Positions 9,193 through 9,896 of a DNA stretch of 46,941 nucleotides are shown piece after piece. Below the pieces are notes generated by a model. That model saw only the letters and a program-made list of their open reading frames with translations. It did not search any database and had not been told where the DNA came from. The stretch's first letter is position 1; each line of letters begins with the position of its first letter. A program made the translations under genes and the position numbers. Source of the stretch: a virus; IMG/VR virus record IMGVR_UViG_3300046321_000230, positions 1 through 46,941 of that record. One strand, 5' to 3'.

Positions 9193-9267
9193 TACGTTGT
9201 AAGCTCAGTTGGATAGAGCTCAACACTATCCAGTATTGGGTCGTGGGTTCGAGTCCCATCAATGTAA
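9193..9267 (+). tRNA. tRNA-like gene with abnormal anticodon arm
   Basis: The acceptor TACGTTG/CAATGTA, D stem AGCTC/GAGCT and T arm GTGGG-TTCGAGT-CCCAT are all good. The anticodon arm is not: the best pairing, CAACAC with GTATTG, has one C-A mismatch and leaves a 6-base loop, or an 8-base loop CTATCCAG if the last pair opens. No register gives a 5-bp stem with a 7-base loop. TCC (Gly) lies inside the loop. It may be a degenerate tRNA, an extended-loop tRNA or a non-decoding tRNA mimic. Confidence 0.55.
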
Positions 9268-9305: not shown

Positions 9306-9370
9306 AGTGGTATCGTCTAACTGGTAGGATATTCTCGAGAACAATGCAGGTTCGACTCCTGCTACCACTG
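9306..9370 (+). tRNA. 65-base tRNA-like gene lacking an anticodon loop
   Basis: Acceptor AGTGGTA/TACCACT is perfect (7 bp). The D arm (GTCT-AACTGGTA-GGAT) and T arm (GCAGG-TTCGACT-CCTGC) are normal, and a 4-base variable region follows the anticodon stem. The anticodon stem is TTCTC immediately followed by GAGAA: its two strands touch, so the seven loop bases are exactly absent. Overall it resembles tRNA-Gln/Glu. It cannot decode in the normal way. A CTGAT/ATCAG hairpin precedes it at 9276-9300, and the tmRNA acceptor half follows directly. Confidence 0.55.
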
Positions 9371-9438
9371 CGATTAAGTTGTTTGAAGTTCTGGAATTTT
9401 CTGTTTGGACGTGGGTTCGAGTCCCACCACCTCCACGA
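9371..9438 (+). ncRNA. ssrA: tmRNA 3' (acceptor) half, permuted two-piece gene
   Basis: Contains TGGAATTTTC and TTTGGACGTGGG, then the T loop TTCGAGT, CCCAC, the acceptor strand CACCTCC (9428-9434) and A-CGA. This is the conserved 3' end of tmRNA (in E. coli GGAATTTCGGAC, a T arm, then the acceptor strand). No matching tRNA 5' half exists upstream. Instead CACCTCC pairs at all seven positions (one G-U) with GGGGGTG at 9674, and TTTCTGTT (9398-9405) can pair with AGCAGAAA (9707-9714) as a P2-like helix. The 3' half therefore precedes the 5' half, as in circularly permuted two-piece tmRNAs. The precursor 5' end is not defined. Confidence 0.6.
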
Positions 9439-9673
9439 GAAATCCAACACTGAGGAGACATCTACAGGTGCTCTGGTTGATTTTTTGTAAGTTTTTAGTT
9501 ATAAACTTTCTGGTGGAGTCTTCTGAGAAATCGGTTGACCTAATGGTCTTACTGCACCATAAAATCTATCCTTTAGATGAAACTAGGTTTTTTGAGACTC
9601 TGTTGAGTGTATAGATAAGCTATCTAGTAACACCCTTAATGGGAAGTCAGATGTAGATTTTGAAGCAGTAAAT
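9439..9673 (+). other. Spacer between the two tmRNA halves
   Basis: 235 bases with no convincing gene. In permuted tmRNA precursors an intervening segment joins the acceptor half to the coding half and is removed by processing. Hairpins are visible (AAGTTT/AAACTT near 9489-9510, AGATA/TATCT near 9612-9625). The forward frame 9405-9614 crosses the acceptor half and is not a gene. Confidence 0.5.
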
Positions 9674-9824
9674 GGGGGTGTCTGGCTTTGACAGCAGTTG
9701 TAAATTAGCAGAAATAGATTTAATCAAACAAATAACTGGTAAAGTTATAAATCTTTTTGGTAACACTGTACAGGCTGCAGCGTAATCAAACGAAACTTGG
9801 GTAGAGCGTCAATCTACCCTAAAT
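9674..9824 (+). ncRNA. ssrA: tmRNA 5'/tag-encoding half
   Basis: Starts GGGGGTG followed by TCTGGCTTTGACAGC, the diagnostic 5' tRNA-like domain of tmRNA. A tag frame opens after AATAACT at GGT 9738 and ends at TAA 9783-9785, giving GKVINLFGNTVQAAA. Tags end in small hydrophobic residues such as AAA or LAA, and I recall a Gly resume codon in Bacteroidetes tmRNAs. A 7-bp stem GGGTAGA/TCTACCC (9799-9819) follows. The 5' GGGGGTG pairs poorly with the nearest downstream acceptor (CCTCTCC at 9889), which instead pairs with GGGGAGG at 9825. Role: rescue of stalled ribosomes and tagging of incomplete proteins, perhaps with a phage-specific tag. The exact tag start and 3' end are inferred. Confidence 0.65.
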
Positions 9825-9896
9825 GGGGAGGATTGTCTATATAGGAGTAGACTGCTTGATAGGAAATCACTGTTGGTTCGAATCCAACCCTCTCCA
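9825..9896 (+). tRNA. 72-base tRNA-like gene with shortened anticodon arm
   Basis: Acceptor GGGGAGG/CCTCTCC (one G-U), D stem GTCTA/TAGAC and T arm GTTGG-TTCGAAT-CCAAC are well formed. Only 19 bases lie between the D and T arms, too few for a normal anticodon arm plus variable loop. The best fold is TGAT/ATCA with the 5-base loop AGGAA. No anticodon can be read. It follows the tmRNA tag half directly and may be cut from the same transcript. Confidence 0.55.

Follow-up and report, generated by a model that had tools for sequence, protein, structure and literature searches.

Organisation of the locus

The DNA analysed here (the window), 46,941 bases long, is a virus record from IMG/VR. It carries terminase, portal and head protease genes and contains a permuted tmRNA gene at 9371-9823 (Table 1). 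The acceptor half precedes the coding half on the same strand (9371-9435, then 9674-9823), as in Rfam family RF04321 (tmRNA_permuted), whose covariance model matches plus-strand positions 9389-9785 with 52.4 bits (cut-off 47; E 1.6e-7 with the entire window searched). Working by a separate method, ARAGORN also calls a tmRNA* at this locus with a tag identical to that of the initial annotation. The permuted order of the halves, proposed in that annotation, is backed by Rfam, by ARAGORN, by covariation and by the relatives of the window.

The coding half contains the 5' strand of the acceptor stem, an analogue of the D arm, one strand of helix P2, the tag frame and a 3' hairpin; direct reading places TCTGGCTTTGACAGC at 9681-9695. 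CCA is not encoded. The spacer that had been noted between the halves is indeed present, but direct reading gives it 238 nt rather than 235.

Table 1 Features of the permuted tmRNA locus in the window
Feature	Position	Strand	Basis and remarks
Acceptor half (3' half)	9371..9435	+	RF04321 from 9389; predicted 3' end A9435; putative 5' end
P2 strand in acceptor half, CTG-T-TTG	9401..9407	+	Covaries with 9692-9697 (11 phage tmRNAs)
T arm, GTGGG-TTCGAGT-CCCAC	9411..9427	+	Direct reading, RF04321
Acceptor stem, 3' strand, CACCTCC	9428..9434	+	Pairs with 9674-9680; U70 at 9432
Spacer, predicted to be removed	9436..9673	+	Length and sequence vary among relatives
Conserved element: hairpin, TGGTGGA, hairpin, GACC	9489..9540	+	Also in spacers of relatives
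Coding half (5' half)	9674..9823	+	RF04321 to 9785, ARAGORN tmRNA*; putative 3' end
Acceptor stem, 5' strand, GGGGGTG	9674..9680	+	Direct reading, covariation; G3 at 9676
P2 strand in coding half, CAGCAG	9692..9697	+	Compensatory changes in relatives
Tag frame GKVINLFGNTVQAAA and stop TAA (GGT..TAA)	9738..9785	+	ARAGORN, direct reading
Hairpin after the tag, GGGTAGA..TCTACCC	9799..9819	+	Matching hairpins in relatives
tRNA-Ala-like gene or tRNA-like domain, G3-U70	9825..9896	+	RF00023 ends match, 20.5 bits, below cut-off

Two other assignments of the halves were tried and rejected. An ordinary tRNA could not accommodate the 3' half: there is no matching 5' strand upstream, and GGGGGTG occurs on the plus strand only once in 46.9 kb, at 9674. 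A one-piece tmRNA built from the coding half and the T arm at 9875-9895 would pair GGGGGTG/CCTCTCC with one mismatch and three wobbles, or with fewer standard pairs; the CCTCTCC strand of that domain pairs at 7 of 7 positions with GGGGAGG at 9825. The standard tmRNA model RF00023 (cut-off 47) reaches at best 22.3 bits in the window. With blastn, the locus found no match among GenBank phages, and a search of viral contigs for the exact pattern TGGNTTTGACAGCAGTTG returned 11 contigs, about the chance expectation, none with a tmRNA by ARAGORN.

The gene has tRNA-like neighbours. Adjoining it downstream, the 9825-9896 domain has a short anticodon arm (TGAT-AGGAA-ATCA) and receives no ARAGORN call. 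Upstream lie a tRNA-Gln-like gene without a 7-nt anticodon loop (9306-9370, 43.9 bits; anticodon arm TTCTCGAGAA) and a tRNA with a mismatched pair in the anticodon arm and what looks like an 8-nt loop (9193-9267, 37.5 bits; CTATCCAG).

Secondary structure and covariation

The acceptor strands of the two halves pair at 7 of 7 positions, as initially reported, a G3-U70 wobble included; the discriminator base is A9435. Such a wobble is a mark of alanine-charged RNAs. We scored the acceptor, T-stem and P2 cells of an alignment (A4) of 11 sequences, eight from the group of the window and three from crAss-like phages. Standard pairs fill 98.1% of the cells and both sides have changed at 8 of 19 pairs; when partners are slid by 1-3 positions as a control, pairing falls to 46-62%. 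The acceptor stem has three covarying positions and keeps G3-U70 invariant (11/11), the T arm is paired in 100% of cells with covariation at 2 of its 5 pairs, and the P2 of one close relative (G005) has A-U instead of C-G at the partner site of 9692-9697. The sequences of all three helices differ among relatives, with pairing kept throughout.

Folded together, the two pieces reach -16.6 kcal/mol versus -6.9 +/- 3.4 for shuffled sequences, 2 of 200 shuffles being as strong. Energy folding of the window sequence alone prefers the second helix of the initial annotation, TTTCTGTT/AGCAGAAA. This helix did not withstand comparison: only 6 of its 8 pairs form in the closest relative (counted by eye), and the conserved, covarying P2 is 9401-9407/9692-9697. 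We therefore rejected AGCAGAAA as the P2 partner, the helix being energy-favoured in the window only and not conserved.

Tag peptide

The frame initially read as ending at 9785 is the one that ARAGORN finds, with TAA as its stop. Its description as phage-specific also stands: the tag is unlike the host-type GENNYALAA and is conserved between relatives. The close relatives G005 and G022 encode GKVVNLFNNPVQAAA and PKVINLFGNSVQAAA, respectively; elsewhere in the group we find GKTINFSNAPLRAVA (four records), GKNSIKMFTQPLRAAA and, in Chryseobacterium phage MA9V-3, GNVIDINKYVAKLEVAA. The frame is conserved among related phages, its changes being silent or conservative. The first residue is G throughout (with one P), and small residues stand at the tag end. 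The window tag finishes in -QAAA versus -ALAA in Bacteroidota-type tmRNAs, which were taken from IMG/VR contigs through their GENNYALAA tag, so that the G start of these host-type tags is by construction.

Distribution among related phages and host

Related phages were gathered by a terminase search. RF04321 scores above its cut-off in G005 and, among 29 additional records, in 11, namely ten IMG/VR relatives, some of them near-identical (four share the tag GKTINFSNAPLRAVA), and the isolate MA9V-3. The acceptor-half block has a near-identical counterpart in G005 and a related one in G022. Relatives lacking an RF04321 match were searched with a degenerate acceptor pattern at 3 mismatches, which revealed no missed tmRNA; since many relatives have no detectable tmRNA at all, the gene is not essential. 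A hairpin matching that after the tag and followed by a T run, terminator-like, is found in MA9V-3 (by tool) and in other relatives (by eye).

The initial annotation knew of no permuted tmRNA in Bacteroidetes phages, but copies exist in MA9V-3 and in the gut crAss-like phages cr114_1, cr10_1, cr50_1 and cr53_1 (Rfam) and cr125_1 (ARAGORN only). GenBank labels those of cr114_1, cr125_1, cr10_1, cr50_1 and MA9V-3 just as 'tmRNA, SsrA' and leaves that of cr53_1 unannotated; the MA9V-3 paper lists a tmRNA with permutation unmentioned (PMC13120357). The spacer of cr114_1 contains a whole tRNA-His gene (L116:1565-1637), whose excision would separate the halves; this gives indirect support to the predicted processing into two RNAs. 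Standard-order tmRNAs are carried by the Cellulophaga phages Calle, phi38:1 and phi14:2 and by Flavobacterium phage FpV4.

Several further observations were made in these records. MA9V-3 also encodes a ClpX-like AAA+ ATPase (L046:26938-27777), as no other tested phage does. The standard tmRNA of FpV4 is unannotated (L131:1460-1874, 58.2 bits), and the same DNA is matched by many related F. psychrophilum phages. Near the crAss-like tmRNAs are RNAs of the RAGATH-9 and RAGATH-22 types (L116:1041-1208, L117:857-1023, L118:1309-1477). The terminase scan of genome contigs gave one match, DZBD01000067.1 (L079), binned as Sulfuricurvum and probably a misbinned phage. A recoded stop in one record (L015) was considered and rejected: the in-frame TAA sits upstream of the conserved terminase body.

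The host is likely a Bacteroidota bacterium. Among phages with names, those nearest to the window infect Chryseobacterium (portal identity 46%) and Bacteroides (terminase identity 35%). Upstream of the 50 window genes no Shine-Dalgarno-like 4-mer is found (0/50; chance alone predicts fewer than 1), and the upstream regions are A-rich, both as expected of Bacteroidota.

Permuted and standard order within one clade

One relative, G004, has a one-piece tmRNA (RF00023, 67.5 bits) with a phage-type tag, GKVLTMPSMNAPMRAAA. In the terminase tree it is sister to G005, G022 and G023 with support 100/98. A tRNA with a 6-nt anticodon loop stands directly upstream of the tmRNA in G004, G005 and G022 and is absent from the other 27 of 30 records tested; given this shared tRNA and the related terminases, the same tRNA-flanked place holds either gene order. 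That tRNA (L024:1093-1165, L023:1414-1486, L081:1422-1494) has the loop GACTAA, a CTA anticodon without U33 and a covarying stem.

It seems, as far as these sequences tell, that the order was swapped, or the swap undone, within phages. Every main branch of the terminase tree has permuted genes and G004 alone has standard order, which would favour a reversal there. Exchange of tmRNA genes between phages is likely, because the window tag is nearer to those of G005 and G022 than the window terminase is to theirs.

Spacer length ranges from 59 to 238 nt among relatives. The hairpin-TGGTGGA-hairpin-GACC element lies in the spacer in the window and in G005 and G022, and G011 and G012 have a shorter form of it there (homology judged by eye). 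In the standard-order genes of G004, FpV4 and Calle, the TGGTGGA element is part of the one-piece RNA, with the tag on one side and the acceptor half on the other. Circular permutation of the simple kind would not have moved it into the spacer.

Class and origin

Permuted tmRNAs have been described from three bacterial lineages, from organelles and from marine phages, which mostly follow such lineages. TTTGAC, in place of TTCGAC, is shared by 7/7 Bacteroidota-type standard tmRNAs, 10/11 phages of the window group and 5/5 crAss-like phages, and by 0/7 other permuted tmRNAs; mean identities over the tRNA-like domain (~77 columns) lie little apart (0.675 versus 0.650). All Bacteroidota-type tmRNAs examined are in standard order. 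These signatures, which are short motifs and carry a moderate claim, point to derivation of the phage genes from a Bacteroidota-type standard tmRNA. Together with the clade of G004, this suggests a phage-borne permutation, probably independent, that changed form inside one clade. A possible history, which we put forward tentatively, is that the permuted lineage of Bacteroidota phages arose in phages from standard Bacteroidota tmRNA, separately from the three bacterial lineages and by other than a simple circular permutation, its order switching within one clade (G004 standard, G005 and G022 permuted).

Alternatively, a working tmRNA might have been acquired from a bacterium with a permuted gene (alpha, beta or cyano) and have diverged later, an account that differs in origin only and has been proposed for phage Melnitz. 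RF04321, built from the alpha, beta and cyano groups, still detects the window gene, and the beta-type model RF01850 gives MA9V-3 40.7 bits. The scores of the window itself are nevertheless far under the clade cut-offs (20.2 bits for RF01850, cut-off 84; 15.7 bits for the alpha-type RF01849, cut-off 50); the cyano-type RF01851 has no hit at gathering and none to E = 1, although the latter search may conceal a weaker overlapping match from that clan. A Bacteroidota source agrees better with TTTGAC, the G-initial tag and the absence of an encoded CCA, and the sister phage G004 has a standard-order homologue. We consider acquisition from such a donor unlikely.

Proposed function

Gene order, tRNA-like structure, tag conservation and distribution make it very probable that the window gene belongs to a functional family of phage-encoded two-piece tmRNAs of Bacteroidota phages, which would perform host-dependent rescue with a tag of their own; both gene orders occur in one clade, and the origin is probably independent, from standard Bacteroidota-type tmRNA. 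Host tRNA-processing enzymes are predicted to cut the transcript after A9435 and before G9674, leaving two pieces that the acceptor stem and P2 would hold together. CCA would be added post-transcriptionally to the acceptor piece, host AlaRS would charge it through G3-U70, and host SmpB would deliver the tmRNA to stalled ribosomes, which would be rescued with GKVINLFGNTVQAAA appended to their products. A phage-encoded SmpB was sought in 20 records and none was found, which makes the function dependent on the host. The phage may in this manner supply its own ribosome rescue during infection, with the host-type -ALAA degron replaced by a phage tag in -QAAA.

The tag bears on whether the RNA might instead be a decoy, its tRNA-like domain titrating SmpB and EF-Tu to block host trans-translation. 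There are precedents for such a role in the tag-less tmRNA of mycobacteriophage DS6A and in tmRNA inhibition in E. coli (PMC4131195, PMC11915505). In the present family, however, diverged phages retain the frame of the tag, stop included, and conserve its amino acids, which argues against a pure decoy and renders the idea improbable. Still less credible is a decaying relic made of tmRNA fragments without function: aberrant tRNAs lie nearby in the window and the tmRNA is patchily distributed on the terminase tree, but compensatory changes in all three helices (11 sequences) and the conserved tag speak against decay. A chance resemblance of unrelated tRNA halves, conceivable among several nearby tRNA genes with a common T-arm sequence, is refuted by the E value of 1.6e-7, the homologues in many phages and the covariation.

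The finding of greatest value is that one phage clade contains both gene orders. Because close relatives differ in order and the host phylum is standard where examined, the origin and reversibility of the permutation become testable in a small, fast-evolving system for gene permutation. The phage-specific tags could likewise be used to test how a virus alters the fate of rescued proteins.

Comparison with known systems

As a kind, permuted tmRNA in phages is already known from marine phages: a survey of 18,146 phage genomes counted 53 two-piece tmRNAs, and marine or aquatic samples had yielded 50 of these (PMC9004378). The permuted ssrA of Methylophilales phage Melnitz and Pelagibacter phage Mosig is likewise phage-borne, but it groups with permuted genes of alphaproteobacteria, gammaproteobacteria or cyanobacteria (PMC9004378), whereas the Bacteroidota-type tmRNAs found here are all standard. 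A further difference is that our Rfam scan found no riboswitch. Among open-licence papers we found no description of permuted tmRNA for Bacteroidota phages.

Bacterial two-piece tmRNAs (RF01849, RF01850 and RF01851, merged in RF04321) share with the window gene the succession of acceptor half, spacer and coding half, as well as acceptor stem, T arm, P2 and tag frame. The window gene differs in falling far below the clade models, in its G-initial tag ending in -QAAA, in lacking an encoded CCA and in its Bacteroidota-like TTTGACAGC.

Closer counterparts are found in Bacteroidota phages. The tmRNA of MA9V-3 (PV245944.1, PMC13120357) is permuted, scores 64.7 bits with RF04321 and comes from a phage whose portal protein is related (46%); unlike the window gene, it has the tag GNVIDINKYVAKLEVAA and a 60-nt spacer and was published as a plain tmRNA. 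Those of the crAss-like phages cr114_1, cr125_1, cr10_1, cr50_1 and cr53_1 (Suoliviridae) are permuted, with a Bacteroidota-like signature and G-initial tags, but the tags are of GNFYVTDYTRIAA type and the cr114_1 spacer houses a tRNA-His gene. The standard-order tmRNAs of G004, Cellulophaga phages Calle and phi38:1 and Flavobacterium phage FpV4 have the same halves and share the TGGTGGA-hairpin element, and G004 also has a phage-type tag (GKVLTMPSMNAPMRAAA); they differ in their one-piece order, with the TGGTGGA element between tag and acceptor half. Against this background three points look new: the phage copies fail to fit the alpha, beta and cyano models, their signatures are Bacteroidota-like although every Bacteroidota-type tmRNA examined is standard, and a sister phage, G004, has standard order beside the same tRNA.
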